Assembly: GCA_002841625.1 (NCBI GenBank)
Contig: PHAG01000002.1
Location: forward strand, 248,001 to 312,000
DNA length: 64,000 nt
Source of the DNA: Firmicutes bacterium HGW-Firmicutes-1
GTDB lineage: Bacteria; Bacillota; Clostridia; Lachnospirales; Vallitaleaceae
Reading direction: 5' to 3'
Below are positions 44,783-51,333 of this stretch, one piece after another. The notes beneath the pieces were generated by a model. The model was not told the origin of the DNA. It searched no databases and saw only the letters and a program-made list of their open reading frames with translations. Made by a program: the position numbers and the translations under genes. Numbering within the stretch: the stretch's first letter is position 1; every line of letters begins with the position of its first letter.

Positions 44783-45461
44783 AATTCTAATAATTGAAGA
44801 TGAAGTAAGCATTGGTGAACTTGAAAAGGACTATTTAGAAATAAATGGTTTTGAAGTAAACCTCATTACAAATGGGAAAAAGGGACTGATGGAAGCACGT
44901 ACAAATCATTATGATCTCATTATTCTTGATTTAATGCTACCTGAAATTGATGGTTTTGAAATCTGCAAAAAAGTCCGCGAAAAAAGCAATATTCCAATTT
45001 TAATGGTTTCTGCAAGAAAAGAAGATATTGATAAAATAAGAGGCCTTGGACTTGGGGCAGATGATTATATGACCAAGCCCTTTAGTCCTAATGAATTGGT
45101 AGCTAGAGTGAAGGCCCATATTCTTCGTTATGAAAGGCTGGTAGGAATCAATCAAGAAAAAAATGAATTGTCAATACGTGGGCTTACAATTAATTTAGGG
45201 ACTAGGCGTGTATCACTTAATGGTCAAAATATCTTTTTAACAGCTAAAGAATTTGATCTATTGTTATATCTTGCACAAAATCCAGATATCGTTTTAAGCA
45301 AAGATCTTATTTTTGATAGAGTATGGGGTATGGATAGCTTTGGTGATATTGCTACGGTTACAGTTCATATTGGGAAAATACGTGAAAAGATTGAAAAAGA
45401 CACTTCGAACCCACAATACATAGAAACTGTATGGGGTGCAGGTTACAGGTTTATGGTATGA
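44772..45461 (+). CDS. OmpR-family response regulator
   Basis: A 229-residue partner of the preceding kinase. The receiver domain has acidic residues E9-D10-E11 (IIEDEV), phosphoacceptor D53 (IILDLMLPEIDG) and the Lys of DDYMTKPFSPNELVARV. The C-terminal winged helix shows LTAKEFDLLLYLAQNPDIV and VTVHIGKIREKIEK, ending in VWGAGYRFM. The frame is open further upstream, but ATG 44772 after AAGGAGA gives the canonical start. Confidence 0.96.
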   Translation: MSNKILIIEDEVSIGELEKDYLEINGFEVNLITNGKKGLMEARTNHYDLIILDLMLPEIDGFEICKKVREKSNIPILMVSARKEDIDKIRGLGLGADDYMTKPFSPNELVARVKAHILRYERLVGINQEKNELSIRGLTINLGTRRVSLNGQNIFLTAKEFDLLLYLAQNPDIVLSKDLIFDRVWGMDSFGDIATVTVHIGKIREKIEKDTSNPQYIETVWGAGYRFMV

Positions 45462-45563
45462 TTTCTACACTTTTTTGTTCTTGGTAGATTGTTTCCAATA
45501 ATTTAATATTGACATGTAAGTAGCCTTCAAGTTATAATATGAATGCTTAAGGAAGGTGAATAT

Positions 45564-45929
45564 ATGACAAAAGGTCAATTAGAGACGAAAATAAGCGAAG
45601 CTATTAGTAAATTTGAAATTGAATATATGGGTAGAGGTCCAAAAACAATTCGCACATATATCATTAATGATATGATCATTGCTAGGCTTTCAGGATTTTT
45701 AAATCCTTCAGAGCAAAAGCTTACAGAAAATCCTCAAGGGATTGAATTATTTAAAAAAGTGCGTACTTCTCTTTTTGAAGGTGGGCGAGGATATTTGGAG
45801 ACATTGATTACAGATATAATTGATGTAGCCATAGTCAGCACTCATTCTGATATTAGCACGAAAACCAGCGAAAAAATTATTGTTATTACAACTGACAGAA
45901 ATTTAGAAGAAATGATAAAATTAATATAG
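45564..45929 (+). CDS. DUF2294 domain protein
   Basis: A 121-residue protein matching DUF2294 as I know it: GQLETKISEAISKFEIEYMG, RGPKTIRTYIINDMIIARLSG, and FEGGRGYLETLITDIIDV. Family members are small cytoplasmic proteins of uncertain role. ATG 45564 follows GGAAGGTG; an earlier ATG at 45543 has no RBS. It is 100 bases after the response regulator and could be the end of that operon; a strong terminator follows. Confidence 0.8.
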   Translation: MTKGQLETKISEAISKFEIEYMGRGPKTIRTYIINDMIIARLSGFLNPSEQKLTENPQGIELFKKVRTSLFEGGRGYLETLITDIIDVAIVSTHSDISTKTSEKIIVITTDRNLEEMIKLI

Positions 45930-45970
45930 TTTCGGAAGACAAATCAAAGTAGCCTAGCTAAGTTGAAAGT

Positions 45971-46014
45971 AAGCCGATATCCACAGATAACTCTGAGGAT
46001 ATCGGCTTTATATA
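45971..46014 (+). terminator. Rho-independent terminator after the DUF2294 gene
   Basis: AAGCCGATATCC (45971-45982) and GGATATCGGCTT (45997-46008) form a perfect 12-bp stem, followed by TATATATTTTT. Confidence 0.82.
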
Positions 46015-46105
46015 TTTTTAAACAGATAAAAGTTCTCTAAATCTACAAATTAGATGTTCTACTATCAATTGTTTAAATACTAATTTATTAAAATAGGAGG
46101 ATTAT

Positions 46106-47980
46106 ATGAAAGAATACTTAAACAAAATACACTTATCAAGCGAAGTACGAAATATTCTAGAAGGTAGTCAAAAATTAATATTTCCTAAGTCAAGGGAAGA
46201 GCTCATTAAGCTTTCTTTTGGAACAGATGATAACGACATTTATAATGTAGAATATGACAGTGGTTTTGGAATGTTTACTGAAGCAACAGTTACAAGATGT
46301 AAAAATGGTGCGGTTGTTAATTATACGGATGACTATATGAGACGTCGTGATCCAGATTGTCTTTTAGTAGCAGATGAACTTGATACGGATAAACCAACTT
46401 ATGATGATGTATATAAAGAAAAATTTGAACCATTGAGAAAAGAAACCTTCGAATGGCTTATGAAGCAGGAGCTAATCGTTCTACCATTTATGGCAGGTGG
46501 ACAAGAATATGGATATGATGCGCTGCTTATTGCACCTGCCAATGCAGCCTTTTTTGCTTGTGGGCTTTCGGACTTGCAGGGGTTTTTAAGCATTGATGAT
46601 ATACCTGAAGGATTTACGCCGAAATCTATTGTGTTTCTTGCACCACCCTTTAGACATACCCATTTTGAAGGTAAGCAGATAGTAGTTCACAATAGATTAA
46701 CTCAAATGCATGAAGTGTTTTCCTATAATCTATATCCTGGCCCAAGTGCAAAAAAAGGTATTTATGGTGTATTACTTAATATTGGAGAAAATGAAGGCTG
46801 GACTACTGTTCATGCTTCAACCGTAAAGGTAATCACACCATATGACAATGAAATTGTCATCATGCATGAAGGTGCTTCTGGCGGTGGAAAAAGTGAAATG
46901 ATCGAAAATGTACATAAAGAATCAGATGGAAGAATTCTTATAGGAGAAAATCTTGTAACAGGTGAGAAAAACTTTATGGAGCTCACAGAATCCTGTGAAC
47001 TACGTCCAGTAACGGATGATATGGCTATGTGTCATCCGAAAATGCAAAATGAAAGTAAGAAGCTTGTAGTTAAGGATGCTGAACAGGGTTGGTTTTTAAG
47101 ATTAGATCAGATCAAAAATTACGGTACAGCACCTGAATATGAAAAGACCTTTACACAACCACCAGAGCCGCTTGTATTTTTAAATATCCAGGGTGTTGCA
47201 AACTCTACTTGTCTGGTATGGGAGCATACGCTAGATTCAGATGGTACTCCATGTCCTAATCCTAGAGTTATTCTTCCTAGACGTTTGGTTTCAAATATTG
47301 TTAACGAACAAGTGGAAATTGATGTAAGAAGTTTTGGTGTTAGAACGCCTCATTGTACAAGGGAAAACCCTTCCTATGGAATTATTGGTTTATTTCATGT
47401 ACTACCACCTGCACTTGCTTGGTTATGGAGACTTGTTGCACCTAGAGGGCATAATAATCCAAGTGTAATCGCATCTGTGGGAATGACAAGTGAAGGGGTA
47501 GGTTCTTACTGGCCCTTTGCAACAGGCAAGATGGTTCAGCAGGCAAATTTACTATTAGAGCAAATTATACGTTCTTCTAATACGAGATATGTACTGATCC
47601 CAAATCAACATATTGGAGTATATAAGGTTGGCTTTATGCCACAATGGATTGCTAGGGAATATATAGCAAGGCGTGGAAGTGCTAAATTTAAACCTGAGCA
47701 TTTAAAAGAGGCTCGCTGTACAATCTTAGGTTTTTGTCTTGATTCATTAAGAATAGATGGACAATATATCAGAAAAGCATTTTTACAACCAGAAACTCAG
47801 GCAGAGGTTGGAAAGGATGGCTATGATAAAGGCGCAGAAATACTTACTGAATTTTTCAAAAAGGAAGTAATGAAATTCAACACTCCAGAGCTTCATCCAG
47901 TAGGTAGACAAATTATTGAATGTTTTTTAAGGGATGCTCCCTTAAGTGAGTATATCGACTTGATGCCAATGAGATACTAG
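46106..47980 (+). CDS. DUF4914 family P-loop protein (PEP carboxykinase/HPr kinase-like fold suspected)
   Basis: A 624-residue cytoplasmic protein that I recognise as DUF4914. Conserved stretches are MRRRDPDCLLVADE (residues about 78-91), APPFRHTHFEGKQIVVHNRL, YNLYPGPSAKKGIYGVLLNI and the P-loop HEGASGGGKSEM with K262 and S263. The GGGKS loop followed by an acidic cluster resembles PEP carboxykinase and HPr-kinase-type P-loops, so nucleotide-dependent phosphotransfer is plausible but unproven. Length matches the family. RBS TAGGAGGA is strong. A DUF3360 membrane protein starts 5 bases after its stop, so the two probably act in one pathway. Confidence 0.78.
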   Translation: MKEYLNKIHLSSEVRNILEGSQKLIFPKSREELIKLSFGTDDNDIYNVEYDSGFGMFTEATVTRCKNGAVVNYTDDYMRRRDPDCLLVADELDTDKPTYDDVYKEKFEPLRKETFEWLMKQELIVLPFMAGGQEYGYDALLIAPANAAFFACGLSDLQGFLSIDDIPEGFTPKSIVFLAPPFRHTHFEGKQIVVHNRLTQMHEVFSYNLYPGPSAKKGIYGVLLNIGENEGWTTVHASTVKVITPYDNEIVIMHEGASGGGKSEMIENVHKESDGRILIGENLVTGEKNFMELTESCELRPVTDDMAMCHPKMQNESKKLVVKDAEQGWFLRLDQIKNYGTAPEYEKTFTQPPEPLVFLNIQGVANSTCLVWEHTLDSDGTPCPNPRVILPRRLVSNIVNEQVEIDVRSFGVRTPHCTRENPSYGIIGLFHVLPPALAWLWRLVAPRGHNNPSVIASVGMTSEGVGSYWPFATGKMVQQANLLLEQIIRSSNTRYVLIPNQHIGVYKVGFMPQWIAREYIARRGSAKFKPEHLKEARCTILGFCLDSLRIDGQYIRKAFLQPETQAEVGKDGYDKGAEILTEFFKKEVMKFNTPELHPVGRQIIECFLRDAPLSEYIDLMPMRY

Positions 47981-47985
47981 TTAAC

Positions 47986-49224
47986 ATGAATCATAAAATG
48001 ATTAAACACTCAAACATAAAAATAATTGATTTTATTCCAGCAATTTCTGGTTTAATTGGCAAAGTAGCACTTGTCACATCTTTTGCCTTTGTATGGGCAC
48101 AAGAGTTAAACATTACTACACCAAATTTTGTGTTTGATAATGTGAGAATTGAAGTGATTATTGGAAGCATCATAACACTTTTAGTAGCCTTATTTTTACC
48201 AAATACATCTCCAGCAGGAACACTTGCACCTCTAATCGTGTTAATACCATCTATGGTTAGCTTTGGTGTTCACCCTTTCATTTTAAGTATAATGGTTGGA
48301 TGCATTGGAATAATTGTTGTAAAAACAAAAATATTCAATAAGTTAATATTGCTTTCGAACCATATTGGTAGATCAAGTCTAGCTCTTACCTTTGGAATTT
48401 CAGGCATAATATTATCTGCTCAAAAACTTCTTTCTTTTTTTGGTAATCAGTATATAGCGTTGATTTTTCTGATTTTTCTACTTATACTTACTTATGTACT
48501 ATTGCTACGTTATAATAAGAGCTGGCTAATTATTCCGGCGGCAACTATTGTTTCTATAGTAATTCCTTTACTTTTTGGAATAAGTATGGATATTTCTGTA
48601 CCAGATACAACGCTGAGCTTTAATCCGATTTATTGGTGGAATGATATGTGGGGCATTGGTTTTGGATTTAATATCGTTACAATCATCAAAACCTTACCAT
48701 TTGCTTTATTTGTAGTTCTACTTTGGGCTATTGATACTGTTTCAATTAAAGCTGTGATTCATACAGCCGAGAATTCAAGTGAAAAAAATGAGGAAATGAA
48801 TCTTGACACTTCATTCATTATTGTTTCGTTGCGTAACATTATTGGGGGAGTATGTGGTGGAGCACAGACCAGTTCTCTTTGGAGAAGCTTTCTAATACCT
48901 CTTTATATGATTAAGAGACCAATTAGATCATCAGCAATATTGCTGGGCATACTAGGTATCATTGCAGGGTTCACTTCAATTCCTATAAAGATTCTATCTT
49001 TTTCTCCTTTAATATGGACAGTATTGCTTTTTGGTATTTTTATTCCATTTGTACTAGTGGGAATTAAGCATTTAAGAAGTACTCAAAAAATAACGCAGAA
49101 GATTGCAATTTTATTATTTTCTGCTACAGGAGTGTTTGTTAGTCCAATTCTAACGTGGTTAGCTGCAGTATGCTTTGAAAAAATCGAGCATAAGTTGATG
49201 AAATTAAATAATAAGATTGATTAA
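47986..49224 (+). CDS. DUF3360 family multi-pass membrane protein (SulP/NCS2-like)
   Basis: A 412-residue protein with about 11-13 hydrophobic helices. Segments match the DUF3360 family as I remember it: DFIPAISGLIGKVALVTSFA, NVRIEVIIGSIITLLVALFLPN, FNPIYWWNDMWGIGF and RNIIGGVCGGAQTSSLWRSFL with PLYMIKRPIRSSA. DUF3360 has repeat organisation like SulP/NCS2 transporters, so transport of an anion or base is likely. No Shine-Dalgarno is visible before ATG 47986; it is 5 bases after the DUF4914 stop and is probably translationally coupled. Confidence 0.75.
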   Translation: MNHKMIKHSNIKIIDFIPAISGLIGKVALVTSFAFVWAQELNITTPNFVFDNVRIEVIIGSIITLLVALFLPNTSPAGTLAPLIVLIPSMVSFGVHPFILSIMVGCIGIIVVKTKIFNKLILLSNHIGRSSLALTFGISGIILSAQKLLSFFGNQYIALIFLIFLLILTYVLLLRYNKSWLIIPAATIVSIVIPLLFGISMDISVPDTTLSFNPIYWWNDMWGIGFGFNIVTIIKTLPFALFVVLLWAIDTVSIKAVIHTAENSSEKNEEMNLDTSFIIVSLRNIIGGVCGGAQTSSLWRSFLIPLYMIKRPIRSSAILLGILGIIAGFTSIPIKILSFSPLIWTVLLFGIFIPFVLVGIKHLRSTQKITQKIAILLFSATGVFVSPILTWLAAVCFEKIEHKLMKLNNKID

Positions 49225-49228
49225 TATG

Positions 49229-49273
49229 AAAGAGAAGGTCCTTTTTACTTAGATTAAGGCTTTCTCTTTTTTT
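49229..49273 (+). terminator. Rho-independent terminator after the DUF3360 gene
   Basis: AAAGAGAAGG pairs with a TTCTCTTT-containing arm at 49262-49269, followed by a run of T. The rest of the gap to asnB (49274-49506) holds no gene. Confidence 0.7.
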
Positions 49274-49506
49274 GATATTAATGAATGGTACCGTTGTTTA
49301 TGTATACTTTTTATTTTAACAAACATACTCGATTGGGAAAGTCTGCTTGCACTTTAATTATCATTATGATAAAATTTATTAGATTAACGTCGTATTTGCA
49401 CTTATAATGTTGGGATTTTTGGACATGCTTTTATGTAAAAGTAATCATAGATACGTCGCAAGTAATCATTAATGCTCAGAAAACAGAAGAGAAAGTAGGT
49501 ATTCAT

Positions 49507-51333
49507 ATGTGTGGATTTGTAGGATTTATAGATAAAATAGATGATAAAAATTCAGTTTTAACGAATATGATGAATGAAATTATTCATAGAGGACCAGATA
49601 GTGAAGGACAGTATATTGACGATAATGTGGCTTTGGGATTTAGAAGACTATCTATTATTGATTTAGAAGGTGGATCACAGCCCCTTTATAATGAAGACAG
49701 TACTATGGTATTGGTTTTCAATGGGGAAATATACAATTATAAGCTAATTAGAGAAGACTTGGTTTCCAAGGGACATATTTTCAAGACCTCAACAGATTCT
49801 GAAGTATTGTTACATGGCTATGAAGAATATGGAACTGAACTCGTAAAAAAGTTAAGAGGTATGTTCAGTTTTGTAATATGGGATAAAAGAAATCAATCAC
49901 TTTTTTGTGCTCGGGATTTTTTTGGTATTAAGCCTTTATATTATAGTCAAAGCAACGGTACCTTCATGTTTGGGTCAGAAATTAAGAGCTTAATTCAACA
50001 TCCAAGTTTCATTAAAGAACTAAATGAAAGGGCATTAGAAAATTATTTAACCTTTCAATATTCCCCAACAAATGAAACCTTTTTTAGAGGAATTTACAAG
50101 CTACCTCCAGCGCATTATTTTATTTATAAAAGTGGTGAAATGAACATTGAGAGGTATTGGGAACCAGAATTTGAGACTGAAGATAAATCATTAGAAGATT
50201 ATGTTGATTTGATTGATGATCAGTTTAAAGAATCAGTTGAGGCACACAAAATTTCCGATGTTGAGGTTGGTTGTTTCTTATCAAGTGGTGTAGACTCTAG
50301 CTATGTTGCCTCTTGTTTTCATGGAGATAAAACCTTTACTGTAGGATTTGATTATCATAAGTACAATGAAATTGATTATGCGAAGGAATTATCATCCTAT
50401 ATTAATATCGATAATTATCATAAGATTATTACAACAGAAGAATACTGGAGTGTACTACCGAAGGTTCAGTATCATATGGACGAGCCTTTGGCAGATCCTT
50501 CTGCAGTAGCGCTATATTTTGTAAGTCAGTTGGCAAGTGAACATGTAAAGGTTGTTCTGTCAGGAGAAGGAGCGGATGAGCTATTTGGTGGTTACAATAT
50601 ATACAGGGAACCAATGGACATTGCTTTTTATACTAAGCTTCCACATGGTCTTAGAAAAGCGATTGGATTTTTAGCAAAATTCCTTCCGGATGTAAAAGGC
50701 AAGAATTTTCTTATACGAGGAAGTAAGACGATTGAAGAACGTTTTATTGGAAATGCGTTTATGTTTACTGAAAAGGAAAGAAAAGCATTACTAACAATTA
50801 CTACTGATGCGGTTGCTCCACAAGTCTTAACGAAACCTTTTTATAACAAGGTGAAGGACAAAGATGATGCTACAAAAATGCAGTTTTTAGACATTCATAT
50901 GTGGATGGCTGGAGATATTTTATTAAAGGCTGATAAGATGAGTATGGCTCATTCGCTTGAACTTAGAGTGCCATTTTTGGATAAAGAGGTTATGAAGTTG
51001 GCGGGTAAAATTCCAACAAAATATAGAGTTCATCCAGTCAATACAAAGTATGCAATGCGTTTAGCTGCACTTAGAAATATTCCAGAAAAAGTAGCGCAGA
51101 AAAAGAAGCTCGGCTTTCCTGTGCCTGTTCGTGTTTGGTTGCGTGAGGAAAAATACTATTTGATTGTTAAGGAAGCTTTTTCTTCAGAACATTCTAAGCA
51201 ATTTTTTGATGAGAAGGAATTACTAAAAATACTCAACCTTCATTATAAAGGTAAAAAGGATAACTCTAGAAAAATATGGACAATATATATGTTTTTAGTA
51301 TGGTATCAACAATTTTTTGTGCAGAAGGGATAA
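49507..51333 (+). CDS. asnB: Asparagine synthetase B (glutamine-hydrolysing)
   Basis: Makes asparagine from aspartate, ATP and glutamine. The 608-residue product starts MCGFVGFID, with catalytic Cys2 of the class II glutamine amidotransferase domain (RGPDSEGQY, VFNGEIYNYKLIR). The synthetase domain has the PP-loop LSSGVDSSYVAS, MDEPLADPSAVALYFVSQLA, VVLSGEGADELFGGYNIYR and DKMSMAHSLELRVPFLD. All motifs are intact and length is typical of the AsnB/AsnO group. RBS GAAAGTAGG is weak. The downstream membrane protein starts 9 bases after its stop. Confidence 0.95.
   Translation: MCGFVGFIDKIDDKNSVLTNMMNEIIHRGPDSEGQYIDDNVALGFRRLSIIDLEGGSQPLYNEDSTMVLVFNGEIYNYKLIREDLVSKGHIFKTSTDSEVLLHGYEEYGTELVKKLRGMFSFVIWDKRNQSLFCARDFFGIKPLYYSQSNGTFMFGSEIKSLIQHPSFIKELNERALENYLTFQYSPTNETFFRGIYKLPPAHYFIYKSGEMNIERYWEPEFETEDKSLEDYVDLIDDQFKESVEAHKISDVEVGCFLSSGVDSSYVASCFHGDKTFTVGFDYHKYNEIDYAKELSSYINIDNYHKIITTEEYWSVLPKVQYHMDEPLADPSAVALYFVSQLASEHVKVVLSGEGADELFGGYNIYREPMDIAFYTKLPHGLRKAIGFLAKFLPDVKGKNFLIRGSKTIEERFIGNAFMFTEKERKALLTITTDAVAPQVLTKPFYNKVKDKDDATKMQFLDIHMWMAGDILLKADKMSMAHSLELRVPFLDKEVMKLAGKIPTKYRVHPVNTKYAMRLAALRNIPEKVAQKKKLGFPVPVRVWLREEKYYLIVKEAFSSEHSKQFFDEKELLKILNLHYKGKKDNSRKIWTIYMFLVWYQQFFVQKG

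Follow-up and report, generated by a model that had tools for sequence, protein, structure and literature searches.

What might two genes of uncharacterised families do when they lie together on one strand, a few bases apart? The question is raised by a 64,000-nucleotide stretch of Firmicutes bacterium HGW-Firmicutes-1 (contig PHAG01000002.1, positions 248,001 to 312,000; hereafter the window), in which a gene for a DUF4914 protein with a P-loop is followed by a gene for a DUF3360 protein. The original prediction, made from the letters of the DNA, had proposed that the pair could be an uptake-and-activation module for an organic anion. Our analysis points to DUF4914 as an uncharacterised family of phosphoenolpyruvate carboxykinase (PEPCK), most likely anaplerotic, and to DUF3360 as an anion transporter, most likely for bicarbonate and otherwise for a small carboxylate, a reading to which we give a probability of roughly 0.6. 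A full-text literature search, with most subscription journals outside its reach, returned no paper on DUF4914 or DUF3360, and NCBIfam had no family for these two window proteins or for MpsC, the third protein considered here.

The kinship of DUF4914 to PEPCK is seen in its predicted fold. An AlphaFold2 model, for which the window protein and 47 relatives served as input, had a mean predicted local distance difference test (pLDDT) score of 90.2 and a predicted template modelling (pTM) score of 0.89. When it was compared with the PDB by Foldseek, the best 50 matches listed were all PEPCK, led by 1aq2 (E 1.9e-22), and in the 50 matches listed by VIA-align the Z scores ranged from 24.7 to 29.1. 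The Thermus ATP-PEPCK aligned with Z 29.1 and a root-mean-square deviation of 3.1 over 487 residues, the pyrophosphate (PPi)-dependent PEPCK 8e1u with Z 27.7 and a deviation of 3.5 over 578 residues, and GTP-PEPCKs with Z of about 25. The DUF4914 profile also aligned by hhalign with seven ATP-PEPCKs, E. coli Pck included (E 1.2e-6), and with six GTP-PEPCKs (E 4.6e-5); the reversed controls gave 0.64 (ATP) and 0.28 (GTP), and an alignment with DUF3360 gave 0.95. The kinship is visible only by such profile-profile and fold comparison: searches of the sequences of solved structures with a single DUF4914 protein or its profile found no PEPCK, and a Pfam scan of the protein at E up to 10 matched PF16260 alone and not PF01293. 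Judged by the model, DUF4914 is a divergent PEPCK homologue whose resemblance extends over the whole chain, and its predicted fold and active site make it almost certainly a member of the PEPCK superfamily. The likeness to PEPCK or HPr kinase that had been read from the P-loop therefore stands in its first half, and the comparison of a predicted DUF4914 structure with PEPCK, proposed as a check, came out in its favour; HPr kinase was absent among the best 50 matches listed in either fold search, though it may be a remote relative.

Conservation of the active site agrees with this assignment. After removal of six duplicates from 96 rows, R80, Y210, K216, K217, H236, K262, S263, D304, D305 and R387 were identical in all 90 non-identical DUF4914 sequences. 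The first four of these, with H236, K262 and S263, are aligned by hhalign with R65, Y207, K212, K213, H232, K254 and T255 of E. coli PEPCK, respectively. R387 corresponds to R333 in a low-threshold ATP-type alignment, with support from the GTP-type one, and D304/D305 align in the GTP-type hhalign comparison with the DD pair of GTP-PEPCK, which we take to be equivalent to E. coli D268/D269. In the E. coli enzyme, R65, Y207, K213, H232 and R333 contact oxaloacetate or phosphoenolpyruvate (PEP), CO2 and the catalytic metal; R65 and R333 are the arginines that bind oxaloacetate/PEP, and K213, H232 and D269 are the metal ligands. All three ligands are matched, by K217 and H236 in the ATP-type alignment and by D305 in the GTP-type one. 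According to PDB titles, R65 (as R65Q), Y207, K212, K213, S250, K254 and D269 of the E. coli enzyme have been mutated for structural study. The P-loop was found where the original prediction had it, with its lysine at K262; hhalign aligns this lysine to K254, and model confidence is below 50 at residues 259-261. A further low-confidence loop, near residues 451-470, falls in the region that corresponds to the mobile lid of PEPCK, which would span about residues 448-466 here. If the analogy with PEPCK holds, R80 and R387 would bind PEP or oxaloacetate, H236 and K217 the catalytic metal, and K262/S263 together with D304/D305 the phosphoryl donor and its metal, with the lid closing over the site. 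We consider it likely, on this analysis, that DUF4914 is an enzyme of PEP/oxaloacetate.

DUF4914 nonetheless differs from each of the known types. With ATP-PEPCK (PF01293; E. coli Pck, Thermus thermophilus 2pc9/1j3b) it shares the whole-chain fold (487/512 residues), the KKG motif, the metal-binding histidine, the P-loop lysine and the R333 equivalent, but identity in structural alignments is at most 18%, the DUF4914 protein is about 100 residues longer, and its stretch from the P-loop to the DD pair is longer as well. The PPi-dependent enzymes (8e1u of Propionibacterium freudenreichii, and 6k31) cover more of the model than the other types do (578-582 of its 624 residues, with Z 27.6-27.7), yet their chains have 1,109-1,126 residues and identity is 17%. 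GTP-PEPCK (PF00821) has EGW..H, DDxA, PN.R and FGxRxP motifs that align with DUF4914, whereas its P-loop is of the PSACGKTN type (as in L146; L and G numbers are our handles for loci and genomes) and that of DUF4914 reads GASGGGKSEM.

For DUF3360, the model was built from 11 sequences (pLDDT 85.6). Its top Foldseek match was a NAT transporter (E 3.3e-7), and VIA-align gave Z 27.9 with UraA, 26.8 with SLC26Dg, about 1 apart, and 23.7 with AE1, proteins that have the fold in common with it at 12-14% identity. The fold searches thus agree with the SulP/NCS2-like features claimed earlier, and the FNPIYWWN motif is present, its W217 and W218 being invariant across the 11 sequences. Short strands at residues 77-79 and 296-298 fit the two half-helix/strand elements of this fold, in transmembrane helices TM3 and TM10. 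R300, directly after the second strand, is also invariant across the 11 sequences, and since SLC26 and SLC4 anion transporters have an arginine where the tenth helix begins, an anion is favoured over a nucleobase. Unlike SulP proteins with a STAS domain, DUF3360 is transporter throughout its length, which leaves no space for a STAS at the C-terminus: the open reading frame (ORF) ends after the transmembrane part, and none was found in the Pfam scan. We therefore have in DUF3360 a predicted membrane transporter of the UraA/SLC26/SLC4 fold.

The pairing of the two families recurs in other genomes. In a phylum sample of 299 genomes searched with the Pfam models, DUF4914 was found in 31 and DUF3360 in two, the window genome alone having both, and among 41 relatives the counts were 27 and two, with no further adjacent pair. 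PF11840 is absent in 30 of the 31 DUF4914 genomes of the phylum sample and from all other sampled members of the window genome's own family, so the pairing is not a general property of DUF4914. An even order sample of 295 genomes had DUF3360 in seven, all of them with DUF4914 and MpsC, and in six of the seven DUF3360 was a near neighbour of DUF4914: directly adjacent in four (the window genome, G342, G456 and G491), and with one MpsC gene between them in G362 and G469. In the seventh, G320, DUF3360 follows MpsC, with DUF4914 on a different contig; an eighth DUF3360 genome (G136, phylum sample) is without DUF4914 and without MpsC. We also assembled 90 loci, comprising 80 named ones, which are the best 80 of at least 581 matches confirmed by tblastn in the GTDB collection, and others, among them L159 and L162, which are there because they carry DUF3360. 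In 13 of these 90 loci DUF3360 is no more than 4 kb from DUF4914; the count is 10 of 87 without L159, L162 and the window, and 10 of 65 among those with 2 kb or more on each side. This proximity requires at least seven changes of state on the tree. A short type of DUF3360 is associated with half of the DUF4914 tree and a long type with the other half, and the gene order varies (MpsC-DUF4914-DUF3360, MpsC-PurE-DUF4914-DUF3360, MpsC-DUF4914-MpsC-DUF3360 and DUF4914-PurK-PurE-DUF3360). Because DUF3360 is so rare and yet so repeatedly near DUF4914, the pairing is more than chance, and the coupling that had been proposed is borne out by the neighbourhood survey: the original prediction was to fall if the pair did not recur in other genomes, and it does recur. 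In one locus, L030 of G060, the DUF4914 gene has many in-frame stops and is probably a decayed copy.

The commonest partner of DUF4914 is MpsC, which lies within 4 kb of it in 28 of the 90 loci with at least 11 changes of state on the tree, followed by PurE in 18 loci with at least eight changes, seven of the PurE cases being close relatives in which it is 3.4-3.7 kb away. Among the 41 relatives we counted 18 strong MpsC copies and set aside three weak ones; nine of the 18 are directly upstream of DUF4914, one is upstream of DUF3360, two are in PEP carboxylase loci, five are beside a sodium/proton antiporter, and one (G302) adjoins no gene of the reference set. A second MpsC in the window genome heads the order MpsC-PurK-PEP carboxylase-PurE-MFS, ending in a major facilitator superfamily (MFS) transporter, and in G317 MpsC is followed by PEP carboxylase. 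PEP carboxylase makes oxaloacetate irreversibly from PEP and bicarbonate and needs no phosphoryl acceptor, bicarbonate is a substrate of PurK, and the carboxylated product of PurK is handled by PurE. The window genome's PEP carboxylase is of the archaeal type (PF14010), a Pfam family different from DUF4914, and the two, which have MpsC and PurE/PurK neighbours in common, would by our proposal catalyse the same conversion of PEP to oxaloacetate. It is mainly because DUF4914 keeps the same company as PEP carboxylase that we prefer the carboxylating direction. An uptake-and-activation module for an organic anion is only one way to read the pair, and as worded it is not supported; the wider neighbourhood of MpsC, PurE and PurK, common with PEP carboxylase, indicates instead a PEP/oxaloacetate/CO2 step, in which the anion may be bicarbonate.

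Several other features of these neighbourhoods were recorded. The PurK of the MpsC-PurK-PEP carboxylase-PurE locus (L164:5682-6830, G000:C21) has an alignment of 389 amino acids and an ORF of 211, so that its frame is interrupted. In L165, L166, L169, L170 and L143 the gene immediately after MpsC encodes a sodium/proton antiporter (a single copy was scanned and matched PF00999), with an aconitase-like gene, named by eye from its sequence, after the antiporter in L165, L166 and L170. An adenylate kinase homologue lies at most 1.4 kb after DUF4914 in L078, L092 and L098, with pyruvate phosphate dikinase (PPDK) nearby in L098. A P-type cation ATPase of about 870 amino acids is found within five genes of DUF4914 in L071, L072, L083, L115 and L122, and a protein of 160-208 amino acids is encoded just ahead of DUF4914 in L083, L092, L098 and L078, the L098 copy, the one scanned, having no Pfam match above cut-off.

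The layout of the window locus (Table 1) supports the coupling of the two genes. The stop of DUF4914 and the start of DUF3360 are 5 nucleotides apart, and inspection of the sequence found no AGGAGG-type motif ahead of the DUF3360 ATG, in accordance with the earlier claim that the second gene lacks a ribosome site of its own, while DUF4914 has one. RNA folding of the gap between MpsC and DUF4914 (45965-46025) gave -24.8 kcal/mol (z -7.9). Because this strong hairpin with its T-rich tail separates them, DUF4914 and DUF3360 look like one message, which MpsC would join only through read-through, if at all. The original prediction had overlooked both MpsC and the hairpin. The hairpin was not listed by a simple terminator scan, promoter-like sites in the region as a whole were no commoner than in its shuffles, and an Rfam scan of 45000-49800 gave no match.

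Table 1. Genes and sequence signals at the DUF4914-DUF3360 locus (window coordinates).
Feature	Coordinates	Strand	Details
Sigma-70 type promoter, TTGACA-18-TATAAT	45509..45538	+	12/12 consensus matches; just upstream of MpsC
MpsC (PF10057)	45543..45929	+	128 aa; Pfam 125.8 bits; immediately upstream of DUF4914
Terminator-like hairpin and T-rich tract	45972..46007	+	between MpsC and DUF4914
AGGAGG ribosome-binding site	46095..46100	+	5 nt ahead of DUF4914 ATG
DUF4914 (PF16260)	46106..47980	+	624 aa; Pfam 1074.6 bits, residues 10-620 (full length)
P-loop GASGGGKSEM	46871..46900	+	DUF4914 residues 256-265, lysine K262
DUF3360 (PF11840)	47986..49224	+	412 aa; Pfam 173.9 bits, cut-off 26.2

We propose that DUF4914 would interconvert PEP plus CO2 and oxaloacetate with phosphoryl transfer, most likely as an anaplerotic CO2-fixing enzyme, that DUF3360, translated from the same message, would most likely supply bicarbonate or else exchange a small carboxylate, and that MpsC may assist or regulate steps that use bicarbonate. 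We hold the complete picture, an anaplerotic module that includes a bicarbonate transporter, as a reasoned hypothesis at somewhat less than even odds. A bolder version, in which DUF4914 would be a fourth kind of PEPCK with a donor of its own (possibly pyrophosphate) and the carboxylating step of an anaerobe CO2-fixing module that shares MpsC, PurE and a DUF3360 bicarbonate transporter and can alternate with PEP carboxylase, is rather doubtful.

Whether DUF4914 takes the place of canonical PEPCK was examined in the phylum sample, with relatedness ignored and after removal of ATP-type matches below 240 bits and GTP-type matches below 350 bits, which included one of 65 bits in the window genome. 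ATP-type PEPCK was rarer with DUF4914 (6/31 genomes, against 113/268 without; p 0.019, relatedness ignored), but the GTP type was not (5/31 against 24/268; p 0.20). Simple replacement was rejected for lack of a clear pattern, 11 of the 31 genomes keeping a canonical enzyme and the window genome having PEP carboxylase. This 65-bit match is a protein of 551 amino acids (L132:1234-2889, G000:C10), and its gene, not that of DUF4914, was what PF01293 picked up in the window genome; NCBIfam PEPCK models score it below their cut-offs. It is possibly another uncharacterised PEPCK-type family. Weak PF01293 matches of this kind (57-69 bits) were found in 12 of the 41 relatives, the window genome included.

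Some observations weigh against an anaplerotic PEPCK fed with bicarbonate. The hhalign significance comes mainly from residues 22-281 (ATP) and 204-417 (GTP), the C-terminal third being linked to PEPCK by structure alone. A PEPCK of either type occurs in 11/31 genomes with DUF4914 (7/16 genera) against 137/268 without (p 0.13), and since the window genome has PEP carboxylase and a second PEPCK-like protein, a further PEP-to-oxaloacetate enzyme looks redundant there. No MpsC, PurE, PurK or DUF3360 lies within 4 kb of DUF4914 in 51 of the 90 loci. The presence of MpsC was rejected as proof of bicarbonate, and a study of S. aureus (PMC6689103) describes MpsC as dispensable for MpsAB bicarbonate transport. 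Finally, an MFS transporter comes directly after DUF4914 in G307, G311, G318 and G319, and the G307 and G311 copies, those scanned, exceed the cut-off of the NCBIfam L-lactate MFS transporter model; with a lactate-type protein in the place of DUF3360, this position may be for a transporter of a carboxylate or organic acid.

This last observation, together with a related MFS (42% identical) in the MpsC-PurK-PEP carboxylase-PurE locus and the PPDK near DUF4914 in L098, would suit a true PEPCK working in the gluconeogenic direction, from oxaloacetate to PEP, beside an importer of a lactate- or pyruvate-type carboxylate. We regard this as unlikely, as carboxylation accords better with the common partners, MpsC and PurE/PurK, and with the PEP carboxylase parallel. 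Less likely again is a PEPCK fold that acts on another substrate, as a kinase or decarboxylase for a different 2-oxo acid or carboxylate: a distinct job is made plausible by the remoteness of the sequence (mostly 14-18% identity in structural alignments) and by the 11 genomes already provided with canonical PEPCK, but the equivalents of R65, Y207, K213, H232 and R333 are invariant in all 90 sequences, which argues for the same substrate. That the pairing with DUF3360 is accidental or merely inherited, with no functional link, could be argued from the scarcity of PF11840 beside DUF4914 in the phylum sample and in the window genome's family, and is highly improbable: two DUF3360 subfamilies go with two DUF4914 clades, in differing gene orders and with repeated changes of state, and the recurrence in six of the seven order-sample genomes largely refutes it. 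An anaplerotic PEPCK with an anion transporter remains our preferred reading.

Named DUF4914 records come from Clostridia, Sphaerochaeta, Bacteroidetes and Thermoanaerobacter, with Thermotoga maritima as control genome. PEPCK stands at a central junction of metabolism. DUF4914 is widespread and uncharacterised in anaerobes; its PEPCK fold and catalytic residues, with an anion transporter and CO2/bicarbonate genes repeatedly beside it, suggest an undescribed enzyme that makes or uses oxaloacetate. A 2020 review (PMC8100219) sets out three PEPCK donor types, ATP, GTP and PPi; a further PEPCK family, if true, would alter how the metabolism of many anaerobes is modelled, and DUF3360 would then be a candidate bicarbonate or carboxylate transporter.

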